This document shows positions 91 to 42,800 of a DNA stretch of 64,000 bases, one piece after another. Source of the stretch: Haliclona indistincta. Lineage: Eukaryota; Porifera; Demospongiae; Haplosclerida; Chalinidae. Both the position numbers and the translations under genes were made by a program. How positions within the stretch are numbered: the first letter of the stretch is position 1; every line of letters begins with the position of its first letter. The notes below the pieces were generated by a model that had not been told where the DNA came from, ran no database searches, and saw only the letters and a program-made list of their open reading frames with translations. The stretch lies in the NCBI GenBank assembly GCA_964017065.1, contig OZ024788.1:1783021-1847020 (forward strand). The letters are read 5' to 3'.

Positions 91-3000
91 CTGTTGAAAA
101 GGTCTCGCAAGAGCAGTTCCATACTCATGATTGTCAAAGTTAATTTCGAGAGCAATTTTCTTTTCCTTAAGAGGTATTGAGTGGAGTGAATGGTGCAGAC
201 ACTGATAGATGATCTTATGAACACTAGGCAATGGTGGCTGTGGGAATAATAGCATGGATAATAAGAGAGAGAGGCAAAAGTTAAACTTTCATACAATATT
301 TCCAAGTAATCGATGGTAGACTCTGTAGAGCTCATGATCAATATCAACTTCTTTTTTGAATCCGTACATAAAATACCGTTCTCGTGCACTGATATCATCT
401 TTTTCATCAGAACCATAATTATGAGAAAAACACGTAAAATGTAAAAAACAAAAGACCGATAATGCACTTACCTTCTCCTTTAAGGAATCTATTACTCTGT
501 ACATTCTTCATGAGCCGGAAAAGCTCGTAATGTTTCTTCAACCGAATATGCATATGTCTATGAATGTGAACATCTAAGACAGTGGCAGCCAGACATGAGT
601 CAACATTATCAAGCAGTTGAAATAGAAAATCCAAGTCGCTGGCACGAGCGACAGTGAAGCCATCAATCAGGAAGTGCTCAGGAGAAAGGTGAGTATTTAG
701 GCAAAATTCAACAGTTTCTTTAAGACTCCTGATAGGCTGTAAAAAGTACCATCTAAAGCTGTAGATAATAGAGCCAAGAGAAATAAGAAGAATGAAGAAG
801 TTTGCTGCCACTAGATTCTGAGATTGAGAGAGGAGACAGTCAATGAACTGAGAGTCTTGGACAGAATCTTTGCATCTAGAGAAAATTGACTTGGGACACT
901 GGAATCGTGAATCATGACCAAAGAACAGTACAAGTGTTACAACACTGCACACAGTCCATAAGATGAGGTGTACAAACATTTTTCTAGCGTACAGTCTTAT
1001 TAGTCCATCACTCCCGCTAAATTGTTTATCAAGCTTCTCCACAGCTTTGAATGCCTCTAGTTCACACTCTCCTTCTGCTGTGAATGGATGTCGATTGAAC
1101 CTCTGTAGAACACTGAAGAAGAACTGGACATGCCATTTGGAGTAAGAGTGCCACAGATACTGAGGCAGTAGTAGAACGATACTTTGCAAGAAAACAAACA
1201 GTGGATAGTAGGACCAGTGAGAGAGAGACTGCTGACAAGCTCTGTTCACGAATGAGCTACTGAGGTGAGGAGGAGAGTCACAAACCACTTCACCATTACC
1301 ACTATAGTATACTGCTAGTAGAGACAACACTAATAGACCCAATGATGACCAGGTAAGCAACCTCTCCCATGGGAAATCATGAGCTAGGTCAATTGGACTA
1401 GTCACACTAGAGCTCACTACATTCACTTGAGGTAGCCTTGGTAAAGAAGGACCAGTGGCTTCTTCAGCAACTAGTTCCTTGGGCTGGCTTGTTGAAATCT
1501 CCTCCTGACGTGCAACAGGTGGTCTTGCTCTTTGTGCAGAAGAACTTGATGTACCTTGTGTCAGACCAAGAACACTCTCTTCAGATTTAGTAAACACCTG
1601 AACAAGGGAATGATGATCGTTAGTATAGTGAGTTTACATAACCATAATGCTGGGAATAACTGTGGTAAACAAATATATTGAGATCACCTGTGTTTCAGTT
1701 ATGTCAAATATCACTGTTCCTCCCACTTGCAACAAAATAACTCTCATTTTCTTAGCTATGTCTTGCTGCTCTTCGGCCATTTGTATCAGCACAGCCTCTA
1801 AGTGCTTAGGAGCCCAGCAAGTAAAACACACACAACCACTGTAGACTACTTTAAGATGAATCCACTTGCGCAGACCAGGAAAAACACGCCGAACAAGGTT
1901 GCGAAACTCTGTGAGTGTAGCTTCGTGCCAATCTAAATCAACTTCTAGTCGTATCTCTGTCTTTGGTAGGTCAGAGTTAGATTGATGGCGTGCTTCCTCT
2001 TCGTTCATGACTGAACCAAGTTCTTCACGGAGGCAAGTTTTAAAATTCTCAGCTTCATTTTTTTCGAATTCTTTAGCTGCGTCTTTAATTTCATGAACAC
2101 CGAGCTCAGTAGCAAGACAAATCAGCATAGTATAATTAGCAACAGTACACCTGGGCAAAATGATTTCTTCAAAAACTTCCCTTATACTGTTGTACTTTGA
2201 AAGATAGGCGCGATTTATTCCTTCGCTGTGGTGAGAATAAAACAGCTGGTCTTTCAGGTCATCGATATCAACGCGCTTCTCAAGACACATTTTAGCTTTC
2301 CTCATCATAGACCCAAATCGACTCTTCAGTGAAAATAACTCATCACTCATCCTTTCTGTGACATCTAGCCCTGAATGAATAAAACAAGACTTAAAGGCCA
2401 TCTTTGTTTATTTTAGTAGCCTTGCTAATCGGAATCTCAGAAACTTGTGGATACATTGCGGATGCATAAACACATTTCAAGTCGTTTCATTCCTTGAATT
2501 TCATGCAAACACCCTATCAGTACAGAGAAAACAATCGGTATCCTACAACCGATTTTTTTTGTACTGATAGTCTTTTCTAAGAACAAGGATAAAATACATC
2601 ATCACAATAAACTATCATCACATGATAGTTTGTACCAGAGACTAACAATCTGGTCATAATTATGGGTGAAACATAATAAACATAATGCCCTTGATGGTAA
2701 CTTGAGTAGAGGTCTAAACAACATAGCTATCTTCTTAGGTATTATACTTAGTAGCACTCACGTCTTAGCATTGGTCTGGTCTCGGTAGGCACATCTTCTT
2801 CGCTGCTGCCTGTGGTATAACATGCAAAAAATTAAAATGGCACTGATCAACTAACCTAGATTACATTGTAGTTTCAAATCATAATCAAAATAAACTACAT
2901 AGTGGATAGTATAGTATAATACTCACCGCCATAACTACTCATCGAGTCTCGACGTATCCTTGCCGCAAGAAAACCAGTTGATGTAGAAGCATGCTTCTCA

Positions 3001-3275
3001 AGAATAGAAATAACATTGAAGGCGTCAGATGATGAATCACAGACTTCCAAAAATGTTTGCACTGCTTCTACCACTTTGAGACTACGTCTGAATCTTATAT
3101 CTTTGTCGTTAGTTGCCTCCTCTAGTGTGGTCTTATTGATAATTTTGTTCGAGAAGAGAGCTACGGCGGCTTTGTCCGGATCAATCGCTTTCACAAACGT
3201 CTCGTAGTGCGTCTGGAATGCGCTTGCAATGCGCTGATTGGCTGGCTCGTCATTAGGCCCTTGAGGAGTCGCCAT
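91..3275 (-). CDS. Death-fold / LRRC8-like channel fusion gene, copy A (3' end outside window)
   Basis: Divergent partner of the plus-strand gene at 3925-9153. Exons on the minus strand: 3275-2927, 2809-2762, 2370-1688, 1597-472, 398-295, 237-91; all junctions are GT-AG and in phase, giving 819 codons before the window edge. Exon 1 encodes a CARD-like six-helix domain starting MATPQG. Exon 3 encodes a second helical domain (starts near MSDELFSL) and then a small domain with the motif GCVCFTCWAP. Exon 4 has four hydrophobic segments and paired loop cysteines. The stretch WSYYPLFVFLQS, then FNRHPF, then ASDLDFLFQLLDNVD follows the order and spacing of the LRRC8 pannexin-like region (family knowledge). 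The likely role is a membrane channel or channel-like receptor controlled by death-fold contacts (inference). No leucine-rich repeats are seen; the end of the protein is missing from the window. The start is placed at the ATG shared with the sister gene. Confidence 0.72.
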
Positions 3276-3924
3276 GATCGGCTTCACTCTCTTGAGAGTG
3301 CACGCCTCTAGTAGTAGCCAGAGGGGCGTTCCCAGACCAGTGAACGAAAAATTACGAGGAATCGATCATGATATTGGGATGTGTGCAGAAAGATGGTTGT
3401 GCAGAACCATGGGATGTGGGATATGGAATGTGTGATGTGGGATATGGGATGTGCATGGTTACAGCATGGCTGTGTATTCTGACTTCCGAGCCCATTACGA
3501 CGGCATGGCGGAGGCGATGACTGTCTGCAGGAGATTAACATACACTCGCACACGCGTACGAATCACTCAGTCACACCACTGCACACATAGTCAGTCAAAC
3601 CACAACAATTTTGAATTTTGACACTTCTGAATAAAAAACCTACAAACAGTAACAGAAAAGGCAGTAAAGGATCCGATTCCTTGTCAGTGTCCACCAGAAG
3701 CCAGCCAAAGGAACAATTGTCTTTACATAATACCTAATCCAACTCAAGTGAAACTAAAACAAATCAGTATTACTTAATTTCATTTAGTAGTTATGTTCAG
3801 TACAGTGCAATAAATGCAGCATAGCATTTGTTTAATTAACAATGCTTTTTGGGCGCTAGAGTCTGGGAACGCCCCTTTGGCTACTAATACAGAGGCGTGC
3901 ACTCTCAAGAGAGTGAAGCCGATC
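3276..3924. promoter_or_regulatory. Shared divergent promoter region between the two channel genes
   Basis: The 649 bp between the two start codons are the only upstream DNA available to both genes. About 60 bp next to each ATG are inverted copies of one another (3276-3335 and 3865-3924; both contain CTCTCAAGAGAGTG), so the duplication included the 5' leader. Near 3375-3470 there is a degenerate short repeat of GGGATATGGGATGTG type. No clear TATA box was seen. A bidirectional promoter is inferred from layout only. Confidence 0.45.
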
Positions 3925-6900
3925 ATGGCGACTCCTCAAGGGTCTAACGACGAGCCACCCAATCAGCGCATAGTGCGCGCATTCCGATCCCACTACGAGA
4001 CATTGGTGAAGGCGATAGATCCGGACGGGACAGCACTGGCGCTGTACTCGAATGAGCTGATTACTCCAATAGTATTCGACGAGGCTACCAACAGCAAAGA
4101 TACAGAATTCGCTCGTAGTCTCTGTGTTTTAAGAGCAGTGGAAAGGTACTTGAACTCCTGCAAATCTTCATCTGATGCCCTCAAGATTCTCTCTGTTGTT
4201 GATAAGCACATTCCTCCAACATCTGATGGCGGTGTCATTGCTAGGATACGTCGAGAATCAATGTGTTTTGGAGGTGAGTAGTAAATATGTCTAGTAGTTG
4301 TGATAAAGCGAGTGATAAAATAATTTACTGCAACACAGGGAGCAGTGAAGAAGATATGGAAATTTCTTCAGCCACCAGCCCTGCTGCTTCAAGACCCAGA
4401 CTAATAGGTGAGTTACCCACTTTACCTGAGGGGCCTGACACAAGTGAAATCTCGTATGCTGACTGGTGAAATCACAGTTGAAATCATTAATGATGGATAT
4501 TTGAAACCGATAAGTAGTTAATTTTCAAAGACATAAATGGTAGTTATCATGACCAATACCAATACAAATCCACGCTTTTTAACTTATCCAAAAGGGTATG
4601 ACTTTGAGTAAACAAGTAGTAGAATCATGAGAAATAACATCACTTGCATTGCTAAAGAATATTAATTTTACTGTACGGAAAGACAATTATAATGTACACA
4701 TACACATGTATTGGTGAGGAACGGGCTCTAAGAACCGATACCGATATTAACGATACTGTCAAAATTTCACCTAAACTGGTTTGTGGTATCTGTATCGGTG
4801 CTTCACTAGAAATCATGAAATCACGGCTGAAATCTGCTAGTTGGTTGTCACCTTGTACCTGCTCATTCATTCCCTGTGTACAAACTTGTAAAAAGGAAGA
4901 AATTACTGTATTTCCAGTGTACTAATACACACGCTCAAGTTAACTCAGACAGTAGTTACGCTAAATCATGAGCCAGTGTCGGATGATCGGATCCCTCGTC
5001 TTTACCCTACATTGTCAGTCATATTTTACTCAGGGTTAATTGTTTTGGGGAAAATTGACAATGTAATTAATTTTATTCGATCACAAGCTACATGTAGTGT
5101 GGTAATGCCGGACTGCATCTCAAATATTGTGTGCTGAAATTTTCGATCTTCTTGCATACAGAATTAGGTGTCACAAAGAGAATGAGTAATGAGTTTTCAT
5201 TACTGAGAGGTCGGTTTGGGTCAATGATGATAAAAGCAAGACAACATCTTGAGAAACATTGTGATATTCACAAGTTGAAAGAACATCTTCGCTATTGCTA
5301 TTATCGTGAAGAAATAAATCATGACCGTCTTTCAGATTGTAACAGTATAAAGGACATTTTTGAAGGATTCATTTTGCCCCAATGTAGTGTATCTAATTGT
5401 TCTATGCTGATATCGCTCGCTACTGAACTGCATATTCATGAGATTATCGAAGCTGTTGACAAGTTTGAACAGAGCGAAGAGAAATTTAAAACATGTCTTC
5501 GTAATGAAGAACTCGGCACTGTGGTAAATGAAGAAACAACTCGACATCAATCTAACTCAGAGCTTCCAAAGACGGAAATAAAACTGAAAGTGGATTGGAA
5601 ATGGCCTGAAGCTACACTTACCGATTTTCGCTCTCTTGTACACGAAGTATTTCCAGGACTGCATCGATGGATACACCTTGAAGTGGTTAACAGTGGCTGT
5701 GTGTGTTTTACTTGCTCAGCTCCTGCACGCTTGGAGGGAGTGCTCATACAAATGGGCAAACAGCGACAAAAAGAAGCTATGAAAATGAGAGTCATTTTAT
5801 TGCAGGTGGGAGAAACGGTGATATTTGAAATAACTAAAAATCAGGTAAAATATATTATTTTGACTGTTTACCACTATTTCCTAGAATGTGCTTATGTAAA
5901 CAATTTGGTTTTATTACACTAACATCAATCATTCCCTTGTTCAGGTGTTGGTTAAATCTGAAGAAAGTGTTCTTGGTCTGACACAATTCACCAGTTCTAT
6001 TTCACAAGGAACAAGAACTATTCCTACTAGTGAGGAGACTTCAAAAAGCCAACCTAAACAACAAGTTGCAGAAAAAACTTCCAGTCCTTCTTTACCTAGT
6101 GTATCAAGGCTACCTCAAGTGAATGTAGTGAACTCTAGTGTGAGTGACCTAGCTCATGATTTCCCATGGGAGAGATTGCTTACCTGGTCATCATTGGCTC
6201 TATTAGTGTTGTCTCTACTAGCAGTATACTATAGTGGTAATGGTGAAGTGGTTTGTGACTCTCCTCCTCACCTCAGTAGCTCATTCGTGAACAGAGCTTG
6301 TCAGCAGTCTCTCTATCACTGGTCCTACTATCCACTGTTTGTCTTCTTGCAAAGCATCATTCTACTACTGCCTCAGTATCTGTGGTACTCTTACTCCAAA
6401 TGGCATGTCCAGTTCTTCTTCAGTGCTCTACAGAGGCTCAATCGACATCCATTCACAGCAGAAGGAGAGTGTGAACTAGAGGCATTCAAAGCTGTGGCTA
6501 ATCTTGATAAACAGTTTAGCAAGACCCGAGGACTAGTGAGACTATATGTTATGAAGATTGTTCTACTCCTGATCTTATGGATCATGTGTAGTGCTAGCAC
6601 AGTAATGCTGTTCTCTGGTCATGATTCACGATTCCAGTGTCCCAAGTCATATCTTCCTAGTGGACATTGTCTATCACGAGATGATTGCGAAACTCTCAAA
6701 GACTCTCCATTCATTAACTGTTTCTACCCTCAGCTACAGAATCTTGGCAGTGTGTGGGCAGCAAACTGCTTCATTCTCCTCGTCTCTCTCTCCTCCATTA
6801 TTTACAGTTTTGGATGGTTCTTCTTGCAGTCTATCAAGAGCTCAAAGGACATGACTATGTTCTGTTTGAACAGCCATCTTTCTCCTGCACACTTCCTCTG

Positions 6901-9153
6901 TCACATTTCTTTAGCTCGAGCTAGTGACTTGGATTTTCTAGTTCAACTTCTTAGTCACGTCGACTCTGACCTTGCTGCAGTTTATCCTAAAATTCAAGTG
7001 TGTGTGCATATGAATCGCTCACTCACCAAACATGCTGAGGTGTTTAGGTTAATGAAATATGTCCAACAATACGGATATCTTGCTGGAGAAGGTGAGTGAA
7101 TCTTTTGAACCTCGTACAGATATGTCTTTTTCCATAAGATGGGTCTCATTGTGAAGATGATATACAAATCAGAGACAGACATTTCAAGTATGGATTTGAA
7201 GACGATATAGACGACAAGTTACAGAGTGCTCATGCTGGTGTCCTTGGGAGCACTGAGATAGTGAGTTGCAAATTTATGATTGCGTTGATTTTGTGAATTC
7301 GTTTTCAGCCACCGTTGTTGAGTGTTCATAAGTTAATCTATCAGTGTCTGAACTGTGTTAATCCACCTGACAAGGAGAAGCAATGTTGTCTGGATATCAC
7401 GTTTGGTACTAGTGTTTATGGAGTTGCCCTGGGCAGAGCTTTCGTTCAGGTATACTGTACAAGTTGCAAAACACTGCCACAGCATGTTTCTTCAATACCG
7501 ATGATTTTGCTGGAAAATATTTTTAGCTAAGCTTTTGCTAAAATTAAATTTGCCAAAGTTTGGTTTTACTATAGCTAGTAATTTAGCGCTGGGTGCCAAA
7601 ATTAAAATTAATTTGCAAACAAAATTTAGGTTATTTGCTAGGGGTTTGACCCTTTAAAACAAGTTTTGACCCTTTTAAATATTCTGTTATGATTTCAAAC
7701 CTCATTACACCAACTAGATAGCTACAAAAAAAAACCGCCAATTTTAATACCATTGTCAATATGTATAGTTAATTACTGTAACAGTCACAATGATTCTAAT
7801 ATCCATGGTTATATTTATGCCACGGTGGGCGGAGCCACGAGGCATACACTAGTCGTGTTGTCTGTCGTTCAGTCTGTCTGTTACACCATTTTTGCGGCGC
7901 ACGCTGAAAGGTAAGCTCTGAAACTTTCAATGCAGGTAGAAATCGATATTATCTCGCTTTTCAACTTGTGAAAATTGTATACGAAGCTTCGTTCTCAAGT
8001 TATGGCGTGATTTGCCTACTTTGTTTATCGTTACTGGCGATCTGGACTTCTCCAAAGGCAAAGCTGTCCACAGTTGACTGCCTAGAAGCTGATAGGTTCG
8101 AATTTTACTACAGGATAGCAGCGCCGGTCCAGAGAAACCGTGAAAGCAAGCTATGGAAGCTATCTCGCTCGTGCTATGCTAAACACTGTAGACACGCCCA
8201 GTTTAATTGTGGTTAGCACTGATTGGCTTCTGATTGTATTACAAAAGCACACATGTATTGTGATTGCTGTACAGAAATCCTGTATACATGCATCTTCAGT
8301 TGCTGTGTTTGTGGAATGGTGGATAGTTGTGTTTGTGGATATTGTGTCATTCCACCGAAGCATCTGCACCTTAGGTGCTTCATTACTGCTCTGTTTTTCC
8401 ATAGGCTGTGTCAGTTAGCTTTTTATCACAGCTGAGTGGATCTAGTGTGACACCAGCTAACACACAAGTTGGTCTGAGTCACTCTCGTGTGACACTACCT
8501 GATACGATTTATGATCAACTGAACGATGACATCAAGAAGGTTAATACTCTACTGTAATGCTCAGACATTTGTAATTGCTGTATTTAGAGTGATACAGCTA
8601 TAAAAGATTTGCTGTGGAAGCATTTAAATGCTCAAAAGAGGCGAGATGTTGAGAATAAGACTGTTCTTAATTTCATTCTTGTCGGTCCCATCCAAGAGGA
8701 GCGAAACATTACCACTGGTATGAAAGATAACTTGTGCTACAGTTTTTTTTTAATGCTCTTTCTTCTCTCTCTCTCTAGCAAATATTTTACTCAGTAAGCT
8801 CTACTCTTTCTGCTGTTTCAATAGAAACTGCCACATGCTCACCCTACGACCGATAAAGATTGGTGACCATGATGTCACTCATGTGTTTCACAAGTTTGTT
8901 CCTGTTGAACGGTGAGAAAATTGACTACTTAATAAAAAAGTATTATTTTTGTACTAGGATGTTTAAATTGGATGAGACAAAGATTGAGAGAATGACTTCA
9001 GGAGAGAGGGCAGTTCAATGTGGTCCTCTAGAATGTGTGTTTGAAGTGAAACTTTATCGTTTTAAAGATTACGGTATTCGTCATCAACTGTATCGTCACC
9101 CATCATTAGAGGATGATGTGTTTCTTCAAGTTGATAATGAATTGCTTAATTAA
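3925..9153 (+). CDS. Death-fold / LRRC8-like channel fusion protein, copy B (complete, 10 exons)
   Basis: Exons 3925-4273, 4339-4407, 5162-5844, 5945-7091, 7157-7260, 7309-7449, 8405-8539, 8588-8717, 8779-8911 and 8958-9153 join without a stop into 1028 codons. Residues about 10-110 form a CARD-like helical domain. About 145-240 is a second death-fold-like helical domain. About 265-367 is a compact domain with GCVCFTCSAP. A Ser/Thr/Pro-rich linker leads to four predicted membrane spans near residues 447-463, 495-514, 570-590 and 637-660. Extracellular loop 1 has Cys in EVVCDSP and NRACQQ; loop 2 has four Cys. FPWERLL before span 1, RLNRHPF after span 2, LVRLYVMK at span 3 and ASDLDFLVQLLSHVD after span 4 match the layout of the LRRC8 channel region. 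Residues 750-1028 are soluble and not recognised. Intron 6 holds a MITE (7816-8384); the 754-bp intron 2 holds nothing recognisable. Confidence 0.78.
7816..8384 (+). mobile_element. MITE of the TATGCCTCGGTGG family (intron of channel gene B)
   Basis: Begins with a hairpin-forming head (TATGCCACGGTGGGCGGAGC, then CACGAGGCATA) and ends with an inverted version (CCACCGAAGCAT) plus a small hairpin around GCACCTTAGGTGC. No transposase is encoded. Related copies lie at 21305-23500, 32357-33197 and, truncated, 46832-46940. Confidence 0.65.
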
Positions 9154-10305: not shown

Positions 10306-12757
10306 AATGCGTTATTTGTTTCTTGCTGCTTTGCTCATTGGAGCAGTTTCTGCAGGTGTTCTTCGTCCACCTCTTGGTAAAATTTTCTTTTATCATGCAC
10401 ATTAATAATTACAATCTTGTTTCAGCTCCTTTGCTACCACTGGAAGAGTCCGAGAATGTAATTCCAGAGGAATACATTGTTATTTTCAAAAAAGCTGCAT
10501 CTGAAATAGATGGTTAGATCTAAAAGTACATATTGTTAACACACACTATACCATCTGTGCAAGTAGCATGTGACATTGATATTTACTGCTATTTATGCAG
10601 ATACAGTGTGCGAAATTTAGCTTTGTGCATGGTTTTCTTGTTTTTGTACTTTCAGTCAATCAACCATCCTTACGTACATAATCTTAATTTGCTGCAGTTC
10701 AGCGTCACATGAACTATCTTGACAACATGATTGAGTTCATCAATGGAACATACAAAGTCCAGCATGTCTACTGATGACATGGGTCCCGACCTGCGTGGAT
10801 ATGCTGCTATCATGAATGAACAGTGAGACTTGTTTATTGATGTGTATAATGTAACTATTTTTGATGTGTCTTTACACTATATTATGTACACACATGCAGA
10901 ATGCTGTATAGTGTGCGCAGTATGCAAGAAGTTGAATACGTGGAGAAAAATCAGGTTTGGTTATAAAAATAATTATTATTTGTCTGTAACTTTATCTTCT
11001 TTGGCTATTTTCAGTGGGGAGAATGGGGAGATACAGATCATTTAAAGAACATTGACTACCCAGACTCAGAATATCAAGATGAATCAGATGAATTTGACCA
11101 AGATGAAGCGGAGGACACTGATGAAGTAGAGGAACCTGAAGACGAGTCAGAGCTGGATGATGATGAGGAAATGGAGCTCCAGAAAAAATGTAAAGTCCAA
11201 AAACTGACTAATGCTAATTGGGTAAGAGTTATAGATCAAAAATGAGTAGTGGCTATGTGCTGATAATTTACTTTCAAATTGTAATTTAAATCACATGCAG
11301 GCTCTGTCAAGAATTTCTCACAAAAAAATTCAGAGTAGCAAATTAAGATACCGCTACAAAAGTGAATTTAGTTATGCTAAAATTGTGTTATGCTAATATT
11401 ATTATGAATATTTCAGGAAACAAACGTTCACAAGGTAAAGGAGTGAATATCTACATCATTGACTCGTACGTTCAAATTATTAATTCCTCAAATTAATTCT
11501 ATTGTCACATTGTCATATCAGTGGAATTGATGTCAAGAATCCGGACTTTGGAGGAAGAGCAAAATGGGTACACTCAACACACACATGCACAACAATATAA
11601 TTGAAATCTTCTCCCAACAGGGTATTAATTTATCCGGTCAACCAGAGATAGACCCAGTTGGCCATGGAACTAATGTAGCAGGATGTGCCATGTCAAAGAC
11701 GTATGGTGTTGCAAAGAAAGCAACAGCAATTGCCGTCGGTATTGATAGAAATGGAAGTCCGGATACAGCGTTAGTTCTAGTATAATGTATTGTAAAAATT
11801 ACGGTTTTTCTCAGTCTAGTAATTAAAGCATTTGAATGGGTTCAAAAAAACCACAAAAAAAGAAAGTCCATTGCCAAGTAAGCAATAATGCATTTTATTG
11901 ACAGTGCTTTATGAATTAATTCAATTATAGTGGGTCATTTGATGTCGGCAGTACGGCGACTGCTGCTGCTGAGGCACTTGTTAAATCGGTAAAGAGTATT
12001 ATAGTTTCTTAAATTCTGATTCAATTAACATGCAGGGAGTTCCTGTGGTTATTGCTGCTGGAAACAGCAGAAAGGATGCGTGTTCATCTCATCCAGCTTC
12101 TTCAAATAAAGTGTAATGTTATAGCTACTCTTATAGCTATAGTGTAATCTTTTGCATTATAGTATTACTGTTGCTGCAAGTGATCGCAATGACAATTTTG
12201 CAAGCTTCAGTAACTTTGGGAAATGCGTCGACCTCATTGCACCAGTAAGTGAATAAAATTAATATCCAAATAAATTATAAACGTCACTATAATATACAAT
12301 GATGCTTGCAGGGTGCTAGTATTCAAACAACAGGAAAGAATAACAAAAATCCTACAACAACGAATGGTGACTATTTTAGTATAGATCTCTTGATTGCTAA
12401 TGTTTTTTTTTCTTCCAAGGAACATCTTTCTCCGCTCCATACACTGTATGTGATCAACAATAACACATGTGCAAACACATAAGTTCAAATAAAAGCTAGT
12501 TATAGCCCATGCTCATATACAATGTCTGTCTATAAAATTAATTTTGTTTTTTTAGAGTGGAGTTCTTGCTACTATAATGGGCAGGAGGAGAAGGACAACA
12601 CCATCTAAAGCAAAGAAACTACTGGAGACCAAGTATAATTATGCTCTTACATTGTGTTCACTCATGAATTGTTATGTCATTTAGGTTTTCTCTGAGTGGT
12701 AAAATCAAGAATGTCCCAAAGGGCACACCCAATCGTCTCCTCAACAGCAGGTGTTGA
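10306..12757 (+). pseudogene. Proteinase K-like subtilase, copy 1 (frameshift in prodomain)
   Basis: Same exon series as the intact copy at 14541: signal peptide [17 protein letters not shown]9-type inhibitor prodomain, Asp/Glu-rich linker exon, and S8 catalytic domain with Asp in IIDSGID, His in GHGTNVAG, oxyanion Asn in AAGN and Ser in GTSFSAP. All catalytic residues remain. Exon 3 (about 10699-10820) has four extra bases (CTGA at about 10771-10774) compared with the other copies, which puts a stop right after HVY. As written it can make only a short prodomain fragment. The last exons and stop at 12755-12757 are otherwise normal. Either a young pseudogene or an assembly error. Confidence 0.75.
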
Positions 12758-13240: not shown

Positions 13241-13363
13241 CGATGTGTGTTTGAAGTGAAACTTTATCGTTTTAAAGACTACGGTATTCGTCATCAACTG
13301 TATCGTCACCCATCATTAGAGGATGATGTGTTTCTTCAAGTTGATAATGAATTGCTTAATTGA
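13241..13363 (+). pseudogene. Fragment of channel-gene last exon (duplicated)
   Basis: Repeats about 120 bp of the last exon of the gene ending at 9153, from the CVFEVKL codons to the stop, with no upstream exons. It is a passenger in the tandem duplication and has no start of its own. Confidence 0.85.
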
Positions 13364-14540: not shown

Positions 14541-16986
14541 ATGCGTTATTTGTTTCTTGCTGCTTTGCTCATTGGAGCAGTTTCTGCAGGTGTTCTTCGT
14601 CCACCTCTTGGTAAAATTTTCTTTTATCATGCACATTAATAATTACAATCTTGTTTCAGCTCCTTTGCTACCACTGGAAGAGTCCGAGAATGTAATTCCA
14701 GAGGAATACATTGTTATTTTCAAAAAAGCTGCATCTGAAATAGATGGTTAGATCTAAAAGTACATATTGTTAACACACACTATACCATCTGTGCAAGTAG
14801 CATGTGACATTGATATTTACTGCTATTTATGCAGATACAGTGTGCGAAATTTAGCTTTGTGCATGGTTTTCTTGTTTTTGTACTTTCAGTCAATCAACCA
14901 TCCTTACGTACATAAACTTAATTTGCTGCAGTTCAGCGTCACATGAGCTATCTTAACAATATGTTTGATGTCATCAATGGAACATACCAAGTCCAGCATG
15001 TCTATGACATGGGTCCGGACCTGCGTGGATATGCTGCTATCATGAATGAACAGTGAGACTTGTTTATTGATGTGTATAATGTAACTATTTTTGATGTGTC
15101 TTTACACTATATTATGTACACACATGCAGAATGCTGTATAGTGTGCGCAGTATGCAAGAAGTTGAATACGTGGAGAAAAATCAGGTTTGGTTATAAAATA
15201 ATTATTATTTGTCTATAACTTTATCTTCTTTGGCTATTTTCAGTGGGGAGAATGGGGAGATACAGATCATTTAAAGAACATTGACTACCCAGACTCAGAA
15301 TATCAAGATGAATCAGATGAATTTGACCAAGATGAAGCGGAGGACACTGATGAAGTAGAGGAACCTGAAGACGAGTCAGAGCTGGATGATGATGAGGAAA
15401 TGGAGCTCCAGAAAAAATGTAAAGTCCAAAAACTGACTAATGCTAATTGGGTAAGAGTTATAGATCAAAAATGAGTAGTGGCTATGTGCTGATAATTTAC
15501 TTTCAAATTGTAATTTAAATCACATGCAGGCTCTGTCAAGAATTTCTCACAAAAAAATTCAGAGTAGCAAATTAAGATACCGCTACAAAAGTGAATTTAG
15601 TTATGCTAAAATTGTGTTATGCTAATATTATTATGAATATTTCAGGAAACAAACGTTCACAAGGTAAAGGAGTGAATATCTACATCATTGACTCGTACGT
15701 TCAAATTATTAATTCCTCAAATTAATTCTATTGTCACATTGTCATATCAGTGGAATTGATGTCAAGAATCCGGACTTTGGAGGAAGAGCAAAATGGGTAC
15801 ACTCAACACACACATGCACAACAATATAATTGAAATCTTCTCCCAATAGGGTATTAATTTATCCGGTCAACCAGAGATAGACCCAGTTGGCCATGGAACC
15901 ATGGTAGCAGGATGTGCCATGTCAAACACATATGGTGTTGCAAAGAAAGCAACAGCAATTGCTGTCGGTATTGATAGGAATGGAAGTCCGGATACAGCGT
16001 TAGTTCTAGTATAATGTCTTGTAAAAATTACGGTTTTTCTCAGTCTAGTAATTAAAGCATTTGAATGGGTTCAAAAAAACCACAAAAAAAGAAAGTCCAT
16101 TGCCAAGTAAGCAATAATGCATTTTATTGACAGTGGTTTATTTTAATTAATTCAATTATAGTGGGTCATTTACTGTCGGCAAAGCGGTAAATGCTGCTGC
16201 TGAGGCACTTGTTAAATCGGTAAGGGATAATAATTCTACCTGATTTTTAAATTCTTATTTCAATTAACAGGGAGTTCCTGTGGTTGTTATTGCTGGAAAT
16301 AACAGAAGAAATGCGTGTTCCTTTCATCCAGCTTCTTCAAACAAAGTGTAATGTTGTAACTACTTTATACTTATAATGAACTATTATTGCATCATAGTAT
16401 TACTGTTGCTGCAAGTGACCGCAATGACAAATTTGCAAGTTTCAGTAACTTTGGGAAATGCGTTAACCTCATTGCACCAGTGAGTTAATAAAATTAATCC
16501 ACATCACTATATATTATACTATGATGCTTGCAGGGTGTTAGTATTCAAACAACAGGAAAGAATAACAATAATCCTGTGACAGCAAATGGTGACTATAATT
16601 TTTTTATTAGTACAGATCTTTTGATTACTAATGTATTTTTTTGTTTCTAAGGAACATCTTTCTCCACTCCATACACTGTATGTGATCTACAATAACACAT
16701 GTACAAGCACATAAGTTGAAATATAAGCTAGCTATAGCCTATGCTCATACATGTACACAATGTTAGTCTATGTTTTATTAGAGTGGAGTTCTTGCTACTA
16801 TAATGGGCGGGAGGAGAAAGACAACACCACGTCAAGCACTGAGGATACTGAAGAGACGGTATATATATGCTCTTACATTCACTCACTCATGAGAATTATG
16901 ACAATTCCTTTAGTTCTCTGCGTCGTAAGATCAAGAATGTCCCAAAGGGCACACCCAATCTTCTCCTCAACAGCAGGTGTCCCTGA
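14541..16986 (+). CDS. Secreted proteinase K-like subtilase, copy 2 (intact, 17 exons)
   Basis: Exons 14541-14610, 14660-14746, 14932-15052, 15130-15184, 15244-15450, 15530-15599, 15646-15694, 15751-15796, 15850-15998, 16044-16106, 16162-16219, 16271-16347, 16398-16479, 16534-16588, 16652-16677, 16782-16858, 16914-16986 give 454 codons, all in phase. Residues 1-16 are a signal peptide. An I9 inhibitor prodomain follows (ends VEYVEKNQ). Residues about 112-180 are a very acidic linker. The S8 domain carries Asp219 (IIDSGI), His250 (GHGTMVAG), Asn335 (IAGN) and Ser399 (GTSFSTP). Family members are secreted serine endopeptidases whose prodomain folds and inhibits the enzyme. The acidic linker between prodomain and protease is unusual. 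Frames and catalytic residues suggest an active gene. Confidence 0.85.
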
Positions 16987-27211: not shown

Positions 27212-27306
27212 GTATTTAGAGTGATGCAGCTATAAAAATATTTGCTGTGGAAGCATTTCAGTGATCAAAAGAGACGAGATGTTGAGAATTAGGCAGTTCT
27301 TAAATT
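27212..27306 (+). pseudogene. Fossil of channel-gene exon 8
   Basis: Matches the exon at 8588-8717 of the channel gene together with its acceptor (TGTATTTAGAGTGATGCAGC), with indels and a stop. 27307-27799 downstream holds no recognisable gene. Confidence 0.7.
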
Positions 27307-27799
27307 CAGTCGCATCTAATACACTGTCTATGTGGCGATGCAATTGCATCACATAATATACTCTCTTCGTTTGTGCAGACATGAACATGCAAACTGGTGT
27401 TTCTGTACAATAATTTGTCAGCTTTTAATACATGTAACAACACATTGTCTTTAGTTAAATGCAACTCTGAGTCAATAGCATTATAAATTATAGCAACAAC
27501 ATATGAGAGCATAAGAGATCATAAGAGCATATTATGAAATGACCAATGAGCAGCAACAACATAGGCAAATCAGTACTGCAGCAAACTACAGAAAAAAATC
27601 AGTCAAACATACAGAATCATGTAACGCACAGTAGTATTATTACGGCAAGAAACTGAAAACTTTAAATTTCTCTTTAAAGAGGAACAGCGATTTCTAATTT
27701 GCTTGCTAACTGCTATAATAAATTATTATTACTAACTTTGGTCATCCCTACATACCACTACCGAGTGATAGTGGTAATAACGCTACATGAGTTACTTAC

Positions 27800-39865: not shown

Positions 39866-42800
39866 CTTGTTTCCGCTTTTTTGTAGGAGGAGCTTCATCA
39901 TTACAAGTACCTATGCGTAATTATACAGTCATAAACACGTACCAACAAAGCATTAAACAAATTCACCTGATGGCTTCTGGGCTCTACAGGTTCTAACTTG
40001 ATCGGCAGCAGTGACCTCGCCCATATCAGTCAAAGCTTCAATCATGTTATCCCAAGAAGCTTCGGGACGTTTTTTCAGCCATTTATCGAACATCATCATC
40101 TTAAGTGTGTTGACTCCTTGTGCATGGTGGGTGGTGTGAATGTCTTTCAGTTCAGCTGGTTCAAGACCCAGATACAGACCAAGTATAGACCAATCACTGA
40201 CACTTGTTGCAGCTTTGACGAGCATCTTAACTGTAGGAGGATCTACATAAGCATAGTAATATTGATCCAAATGACTAACATGTTAATGTACCTGTATACT
40301 TGCAAGATGGCTCAGCTGTAGTACCTATTATCACTGGGTTGACTATCTTCTGTGAAGTATTAAAAAATAAAAAAATAATACTTTTATAGCAATGTATGTA
40401 CATGTAAAAGTCAGGCCTTGCATGTTGAACAGTTAGTCAGGCTATGACGAGTTGTCTTATAAGCAATATTATTGTTTTGTGACCATGCAGAATTCAATAC
40501 AAACACTGTGACGCAACGCAAAATAATGTAATATAATCTGCATTGCATTAACGGCTGCATGATTAGTACATGCCACTGTGTCATACCATAAACCAGCCTG
40601 CAACTACAAAGTGTATTCACTCACAGTAAACCAGCATGCGTGTTTATCATCCAGATAAACTGGTCCATCTCTACAACCTTCTTGAGAACAGATCACTTCT
40701 TGTGGTTTGTCCTTTGTCATGCAGCTAGCAGGATGAGGGCATTGACCTGATTGTATAGCGTGAGGACAATAGAAACCGAAGTCCCACTTCAATCCTTTTG
40801 TGTGTGGATAAAAAGACAAAACGTCATCAAAACACTTCGTCAGTTCAAGCAGGCAATCTTGGATCAATCGAGGGTTGATAGGCTTACAAGAGGTATCATG
40901 GCGAATACGAAACTCAAGGTGTGTGGAGAGAGCACATAACTCAACGTCTAGTACTTGCTCCGATGGTGGTAGAAAGTAAAAACGAATTCTATTTCTAAAT
41001 CGTGGACGCTTAGCCAGTGTCCAGTTACTGCTCTGAGACAGCTTGACAATTGTAGCTGGAAATGGACCAAGAGGAACATATCCAACTCTTGGTATAAGCA
41101 GAATGGAAGGATATGTGAGACTACTGAGGTGGCAAGGATTTTTAAATTCTGCATCAATCTTGTGATCAGGATAAAGAAGGCAAGGTAGAAAGTAGACATT
41201 TTCTTCATTAGCAGATTGGGCATTTTCATAGAGAATATAACGAGAATTCAGTAGTTCCACAATCTCATCGGTTGGAATTTCACTGCCGGTGGACTGACCC
41301 TTGTTTGTGGAACATATCTTTTCCATCAGACGATGAGGAATCTCTCCTGTACGGCGTATTTTCTCAGCTGTTGCTTGTTCACTTGTTTTAGCACCAAATG
41401 CAGTCACAAAGAGCTCTACTGGTGGGCGCATGATGATGTTAGGGTTAACAATGACTTTCTGACCAATCTTCAAGCCACGATAATGGAGAATAGTACCAAA
41501 CCTGTCGTGTAAATATTGAAGGATACCACCCTTCTTGGTGAGGTCTTCTCTGGAGATGCCACAACGCTCTGCTATCTCTATACATTCCTCCAAGCTGCAC
41601 CATCCTGGAGTGGGGTCAAATTTCATACGAAGAATCAGATGCAGCAGTAAAGCAGATATAGGTACTGGTTCAGATTTGAACCGGTCATGAACCACAGTCG
41701 AAATTAATTTTTGCAAATCCTTAACATCACTGCAGTCTTCACTAACATTATCTAATAAATGTATATATTTATTGCTTTCACCTGGCCCACTAACTGGGCA
41801 TAGCACACAATCTTCAATGAAATTGGCAAAGGTATTCTGAACGGACTGTTCTAGAGCAGGAATATTTTTTCTATCACACTTGTCACAATGCGTACCAACA
41901 AGAATGGCTGCTGGCTTGCTATAGTTAGTTGTACTCGATTGAAGAGATGAGATGCTATGAAGGGCGCGCTGAATGATCTCTCTGATAGTAAACTCACAAT
42001 CGTACTGTATGGGACTAGAACTAGTATCTTCAGCTCTGTATACTACAGTGTAGGGAGAGTCCAGATTTTGGGTCAAGTCAAAGAAAAGCATGTTTAGTGC
42101 AAGACCGTGTAGCAGAAGAGGTAGTATTTCATGGAATTCTGGTTGACCTCCAATATCAATGAAGTGAACAAGTGTGAAATCTTTTAAATTTTTGAGTTTT
42201 AATCGAGTGTTTTCTACATCAATTGGCAAAGTGAATTGAGAAATAATGTCATCTTGTACAACTGGTTTAGATTGAGTTGGGAAAGAGCTGACAGTGTCCG
42301 CAGATTCAGTGTCTGCAGATTCAGTGTCTGCAGATTCAGTGTCTGCAGACTCAGTGTCTGCAGATTCAGTGTCTGCAGACTCAGTAGGTTTTACTGTAGA
42401 AGATTCAATCTGTTCTGAAATACAGTTCTTGCTAGAAGATGATATTGCCGAGTTACGAATATGGCTAAAGAGTGATTGACACTGTTCACTTAGTTCTTGA
42501 ATTTGCCATCCTTCTGATACGAGCACAGATGACTGTTCAACTTGATGTGTATACAGCTGTACAGTTAAAGGAGCTTCGATTCCTGTACTAGGAACAATCT
42601 CATCAGGTGACAAGTGATTGATTTTTCCTGTAAGACGACGTAAGGTGGTAGTTTTACCAACACGAGAAGGACCGATAAGATACGACTTGAGTGAGAGTAC
42701 GTCCACACTACCTTGCTGCTTGATGTGCTCTTTCACAACAGCAAAGTCTGTCTCAGCATCATCTGCAAGAACAAAAAATTTAAGATGTCACAATGCTTCT

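Follow-up and report, generated by a model that had tools for sequence, protein, structure and literature searches.

A sponge gene with a predicted N-terminal CARD and TRADD-N-like unit and a four-span region of the LRRC8/pannexin/innexin superfamily

Introduction

Can a death-fold signaling unit and a large-pore membrane channel be parts of a single sponge protein? The question is raised by a stretch of 64,000 nucleotides of the Haliclona indistincta genome (G000:C6:1783021-1847020, from a genome of 144 Mb in 46 contigs; hereafter, the window), in which an earlier note had joined ten exons at positions 3925-9153 of the plus strand into one gene, here called gene A. We confirmed that gene A is real and found that its predicted product has, in order, a predicted CARD fold, a helical domain, an RRM-like domain best read as TRADD-N-like, a linker, a four-span region related by profile searches to the LRRC8/pannexin/innexin superfamily, and a C-terminus.

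Vertebrate pannexin-1 and LRRC8 act beside inflammasomes and cGAS-STING as separate proteins, with links such as caspase cleavage. If a single chain carries both a CARD and a pannexin/LRRC8-type pore, the way in which death-fold assembly connects to a large pore could be put to a direct test. A connection between LRRC8 and cGAS-STING through cGAMP transport is described in sections of one published account (PMC8204762). Innexins and pannexins are reported as not found, absent or lost in sponges in passages of three papers (PMC9949713, PMC6391747, PMC9816575), and a sponge member of the superfamily would change the statement in those passages that sponges have no innexin/pannexin relatives.

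Gene A and Its Paralogs

All ten exons of the earlier reading held their coordinates, and the nine introns between them were all GT-AG and in phase (phase series 1,1,0,1,0,0,0,1,2 in spliced alignment), giving one protein of 1034 codons plus a stop once spliced. Exon 1 (3925-4273) encodes the CARD-fold domain (amino acids 1-116; AlphaFold model, PDB matches and the substitution ratios given below), exon 2 (4339-4407) is a short linker of 23 codons recognized by its GT-AG, in-phase boundaries, exon 3 (5162-5844, to amino acid 367) holds the modelled helical domain in its first half and the RRM-like, TRADD-N-like domain in its second, and exon 4 (5945-7091, amino acids 368-749) holds the linker and then the predicted channel region, as judged by profile searches and hydropathy. 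The C-terminal region is encoded by exons 5 (7139-7260), 6 (7309-7449), 7 (8405-8539), 8 (8588-8717), 9 (8779-8911) and 10 (8958-9153, including the stop codon), each identified by splicing and by tblastn matches in the paralogs, with a C-terminal profile as further evidence for exons 6 and 9; the segment in exon 9 is also present in paralogs that have no CARD. This C-terminus (294 amino acids) had no Pfam family over cut-off and no match in a profile search of PDB.

Gene A is one of four paralogous genes, A to D, that span ~30 kb of one contig. Gene B is divergent and lies inside the window at 3275-1, C corresponds to L010 and D to L011. By tblastn (E <= 0.05), B, C and D each contain nine of the ten gene A exons in an unchanged order, the exception being the 23-codon exon 2, and because of this recurrence in three paralogs on the same contig the exon set is more than chance. 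In B and C the intron phases equaled those of A at all nine shared introns by spliced alignment; an additional micro-exon near exon 2 of B and a split exon 10 in B and C were taken for artefacts of that alignment. In paralog D the first two introns are of phase 2, not 1, and exons 7-8 are uncertain, with one stop left there in the model.

The differences of D at those two introns, together with an open reading frame that in D continues across the intron between exons 3 and 4, would fit a view in which exons 1-3 belong to a transcript separate from the channel and the fusion is a gene-modelling artefact, the model being one built from genomic DNA. We regard this as very unlikely, since the exon order is kept in three paralogs and the phases are identical in A, B and C, both of which argue for one gene rather than two. 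Beyond this genome, homologs of exon 1 were matched in other assemblies on contigs 1366213 and 12345 bases long, the same lengths as contigs that carry channel exons of the CARD type; the equal sizes indicate that the two kinds of exon probably share single contigs, which also speaks against separate transcripts.

Purifying selection was observed on every domain among A, B and C, with ratios of nonsynonymous to synonymous substitution (dN/dS) of 0.13-0.41 per domain. These come from Nei-Gojobori comparisons of A with B, A with C and B with C, with D, exon 2 and amino acids 256-269 left out. Exon 1 gave 0.16-0.41, the first half of exon 3 0.16-0.24 and its second half 0.21-0.22; the four-span part lay at 0.28-0.40 and the C-terminus at 0.13-0.25, and the linker was higher, at 0.58-0.82. 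The cluster also contains a stop-bearing partial fifth copy beside D (L011, plus strand) and window fragments at 3436-3621, 13244-13360 and 27236-27307, as decaying duplicated DNA without function would. However, that the genes themselves are such DNA is scarcely credible given the ratios above and models of A, B and C that have no internal stop. The synonymous rate was lower in exon 4 (0.29-0.49 in the linker and 0.48-0.50 in the four-span part) than the 0.78-3.0 of the C-terminus and of exons 1 and 3, a sign that exon 4 of the paralogs (5945-7091 in A, 473-1597 in B) may have undergone gene conversion.

The Four-Span Region

Hydropathy predicted four membrane spans in exon 4, at 6176-6232 (amino acids 445-463, the best window), 6335-6391 (498-516), 6557-6613 (572-590) and 6770-6826 (643-661), all on the plus strand; an extra hydrophobic stretch at amino acids 826-844, encoded by exons 6-7, was barely over the same threshold. 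Members of the innexin/pannexin/LRRC8 superfamily have four spans, and each of their extracellular loops has two or more conserved cysteines. The same pattern emerged here from hydropathy and alignment, on a predicted topology: four loop cysteines (amino acids 471, 486, 599 and 626) were invariant in a 14-sequence alignment and lined up with LRRC8C cysteines in the profile match, and residues of a P-x-YLW and a DL-x-FL stretch were invariant in members with and without a CARD.

Searches with exon 4 led to relatives that are CARD-less (P0004, E 5.2e-19). Five CARD-less relatives are found in the genome, L006 and L007 being near-identical. Three profiles were compared with PDB, one of 14 sequences of both kinds (A1), one of 16 CARD-less sequences (A10) and one of 11 CARD-type sequences (A9). 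With the mixed profile, all 57 distinct sequences matched at E <= 10 were LRRC8 or pannexin, led by LRRC8C (5.4e-11), LRRC8A (3.7e-7) and pannexin-3 (1.6e-6). The CARD-less profile gave LRRC8 or pannexin in 38 of 41 matches (LRRC8A 1.2e-5, pannexin-1 3.2e-5), and the other three were unrelated proteins at E 0.65 or worse. The profile of CARD-type members matched no LRRC8 or pannexin in PDB, and the window sequence alone had a single match there, to LRRC8D (E 0.037). The CARD-type and CARD-less profiles are homologous to each other (hhalign E 7.7e-36), and it is through the CARD-less relatives that gene A is linked to the superfamily; the assignment depends on them.

In Pfam at E up to 10, Pannexin_like was listed for 12 and Innexin for 11 of the 14 members of the mixed profile; at E up to 1, the CARD-type members matched Pannexin_like in 9 of 11 cases (best 0.0021) and Innexin in 7 of 11 (best 0.0011). 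Window exon 4 itself scored 17.6 bits (E 0.0021) with Pannexin_like (PF12534) and 11.1 bits with Innexin (PF00876), each under a curated cut-off of 25, and the Innexin cut-off was exceeded by two CARD-less sequences, P0029 (31.0) and P0031 (28.1). Genome-wide, PF12534 had one match, below cut-off, and PF00876 had three, two of which are members of gene A's channel family. The third, considered as a canonical innexin, was taken for noise, as it has a stop in frame and falls below cut-off.

Taken together, profile searches make the four-span region a member of the LRRC8/pannexin/innexin superfamily, as the earlier note had expected. Its narrower reading as LRRC8-like did not hold, pannexins being about equally close. 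LRRC8 proteins have six extracellular loop cysteines in three disulphide pairs. With four cysteines in gene A, a CARD-less profile that is about equally near to LRRC8A and to pannexins, and Pfam scores below the cut-offs, the region cannot, on present sequence evidence, be assigned to LRRC8 rather than to pannexin/innexin. Gene A shares with LRRC8, the volume-regulated anion channel (VRAC), the four-span region and the four alignable cysteines, whereas it lacks the third cysteine pair and the C-terminal leucine-rich repeats (LRRs) and has an N-terminal CARD unit. The channel was correctly described as one without LRRs, none being listed in Pfam scans of amino acids 1-749 and of the C-terminus. 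With pannexins and innexins it has in common four spans and two cysteines per extracellular loop, and for the CARD-less members pannexin-1, pannexin-3 and LRRC8A are matches of similar strength; unlike pannexins and innexins, gene A has a long N-terminal death-fold unit, a very divergent sequence and a C-terminus for which Pfam and PDB hold no match.

The divergence of the CARD-type four-span region, sufficient for its own profile to miss every LRRC8 and pannexin in PDB, could mean that the region is a membrane anchor or scaffold without a pore, and the protein a membrane-tethered adaptor. We consider this unlikely. The four loop cysteines and residues of the P-x-YLW and DL-x-FL stretches do not vary between members with a CARD and those that lack it, and the four-span dN/dS lies at 0.28-0.40.

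The N-Terminal Unit

The CARD-like domain proposed for exon 1 was borne out by structure prediction. The AlphaFold (AF2) model (predicted local distance difference test score, pLDDT, 77.8; predicted template modelling score, pTM, 0.69) is a six-helix death fold with a broken first helix, to which solved CARDs are nearest, and CARDs were the leading PDB matches in the structure search. At the sequence level, the Pfam CARD family (PF00619) was listed for none of four exon 1 members at E up to 10, and a PDB profile search with exon 1 gave weak, scattered matches only. Gene A thus has a predicted N-terminal CARD fold in common with CARD adaptors and sensors such as Apaf-1, CED-4, RIG-I and NLRC, but differs from them in that its CARD escapes the Pfam model and is joined to a channel, not to a nucleotide-binding or helicase part.

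Exon 3 was modelled with AF2 (pLDDT 79.8, pTM 0.49). Its second half, the "small GCVCFTC domain" of the earlier note, is predicted to have an RRM-like two-layer fold and is best read as TRADD-N-like. Of 18 copies that resemble exon 3, two matched Pfam TRADD-like_N (PF20694), the better at E 0.0035, and the window copy did not; the copy L050 reached E 0.016 and 15.4 bits against a cut-off of 23.7; one copy scored better with an unrelated MRS2-like family (E 0.00052). The first half, put forward as a second death-fold-like domain, was modelled as helices, but a death fold as such could not be demonstrated: the fold searches (VIA-align rows) covered mainly the second half, residues 133-219. No Pfam family was over cut-off for exon 1 or exon 3 of the window copies, and PDB profile matches to exon 3 were weak and scattered. 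No TRADD-N or death-fold chain was among the 50 matches listed per structure search of the exon 3 model, a result that excludes nothing.

The N-terminal unit is not unique to gene A. Exon-3-like modules have at least 144 further copies in the genome (148 matches with the four paralogs included), and an order of DEATH, exon-3-like module and ankyrin is present among the open reading frames (ORFs) examined. Large clusters of the modules were seen at ~8.8-11.0 Mb of G000:C4 and at ~7.76-8.88 Mb of C8. The theme has also been published for Amphimedon, where, according to the sections of Kaur et al. 2021 that describe them (PMC8195603), NCOA6-clade TRADD-N proteins have one to three Death-like domains, a TRADD-N and a variable C-terminus (ankyrin, SH3-LRR, kinase, MATH, SH2, PDZ, caspase, PNPase or HD). 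As far as those sections go, gene A shares with the Amphimedon proteins the order of Death-like then TRADD-N-like domains, and the two genomes share a large lineage-specific expansion and a C-terminus that varies between paralogous groups (PMC8195603).

The N-terminal unit follows a published theme, and the element that appears to be new is the channel as C-terminus of a CARD/TRADD-N-like unit, a combination that seems undescribed. No channel is among the C-termini in section 10 of PMC8195603, and its main text uses neither the word "pannexin" nor "LRRC8"; such a protein may be listed in its source data, figures or supplement. No fusion of a death fold with an innexin, pannexin or LRRC8 was found in titles and abstract openings of the open-licence literature, a scope outside which subscription journals and preprints lie.

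Proposed Origin and Function

The C-terminal profile of the CARD-type genes matched frames in all five CARD-less loci L013-L017 (E 2.9e-7, 2.8e-5, 3.4e-4, 0.012 and 0.071), whereas the exon 1 and exon 3 profiles found nothing credible in them (best E 0.69, with 3.7-5.9 kb of upstream DNA covered). Since the CARD-less loci share the C-terminus without a credible match to exons 1 and 3, the simplest history would begin with an older channel made of the four-span and C-terminal parts, the immune unit having been joined to it later.

We favor, at a probability of roughly 0.45, a reading of gene A as a subunit of a large-pore channel that is controlled through CARD assembly and serves as an immune or cell-death effector. 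Expressed as a single transcript, each subunit would have a cytosolic N-terminus with a CARD and with a TRADD-N-like adaptor similar in kind to those in the host's large repertoire of death-fold proteins. Large-pore channels of the LRRC8/pannexin/innexin superfamily are hexa- to octamers, and the CARDs of an assembled channel would for that reason form a ring comparable to that of the apoptosome. A sensor with a CARD of its own, or a caspase complex, acting upstream may then dock on this ring and open or unblock the pore, through which ions and small metabolites such as ATP would exit the cell as part of an immune or cell-death response; the genome has 25 CARD and 45 caspase-domain matches as possible partners. 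Somewhat more tentatively still, sponges may have their own LRRC8/pannexin/innexin branch, one group of which was fused to a CARD/TRADD-N unit to give a one-polypeptide channel that is opened by, or seeds, CARD assembly. If true, such a protein would in effect be an inflammasome with a large pore as its effector, in place of a caspase or gasdermin.

The same architecture could also work in the opposite direction, with the channel as a sensor of swelling, membrane damage or a ligand, and with the clustered CARDs and TRADD-N domains as an output that recruits caspases or TRAF-like proteins. LRRC8 channels respond to volume, and the DEATH, exon-3-like and ankyrin order in this genome fits a binding part behind an adaptor. 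In Amphimedon likewise, ankyrin and SH3-LRR, the commonest variable C-termini in the sections cited above, have the appearance of binding parts, and the Death-like/TRADD-N portion that of an adaptor (PMC8195603). Nothing argues directly against such a sensor, which we consider somewhat less likely than the effector, and a CARD docking event that opens the pore is preferred to a stimulated channel that presents its CARDs.

Other Observations in the Window and Genome

The exons of gene B were located on the minus strand at 2927-3275 (exon 1, CARD-like, 58% identical to that of gene A), 2762-2809 (exon 2, spliced alignment only), 1688-2370 (exon 3, helical and TRADD-N-like, 63% identical to that of gene A), 472-1597 (exon 4, channel region, its end set by eye at GTAAGT where the spliced alignment ran 5 codons further), 295-398 (exon 5, spliced alignment) and 91-237 (exon 6, tblastn and spliced alignment); later exons lie mostly or wholly beyond the window (L012). 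Between the divergent A and B, a short frame at 3436-3621 (plus strand) resembles part of D's CARD exon (exon 1 profile E ~0.003) and is probably a degenerate fragment. The partial fifth copy beside D (L011:5283-6864, plus strand) consists of tblastn pieces of exons 1, 2, 8, 9 and 10 only, with a stop within the exon 1 piece. The final 39 codons of gene A exon 10 (9034-9150) recur ~4.2 kb downstream at 13244-13360 with 100% identical protein, and the ORFs at 10973-11245 and 15202-15474 are almost identical; both repeats point to a tandem duplication of a segment. A lone exon 8-like fragment with 71% protein identity lies at 27236-27307 (plus strand).

Farther along the window, at 39953-42787 on the minus strand, ORFs were judged by eye to resemble a DEATH domain at 39953-40282 and, at 40604-42787, a large GTPase-like protein that is perhaps ROCO-like. 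Elsewhere in the genome, one CARD-less channel gene is adjoined on the opposite strand by a long single-exon ORF (L013:4633-5934, plus strand) whose product, judged by eye, resembles a secreted LRR protein that crosses the membrane once. Finally, among seven exons examined in a tandem cluster of cathepsin-L-like exons, L066 has serine in place of the active-site cysteine (CSSYAFS), as in silicatein, and this, taken with the large TRADD-N-like expansion, suggests a demosponge host; L065 and L070 keep the cysteine, and the filter used showed no motif in the other four.

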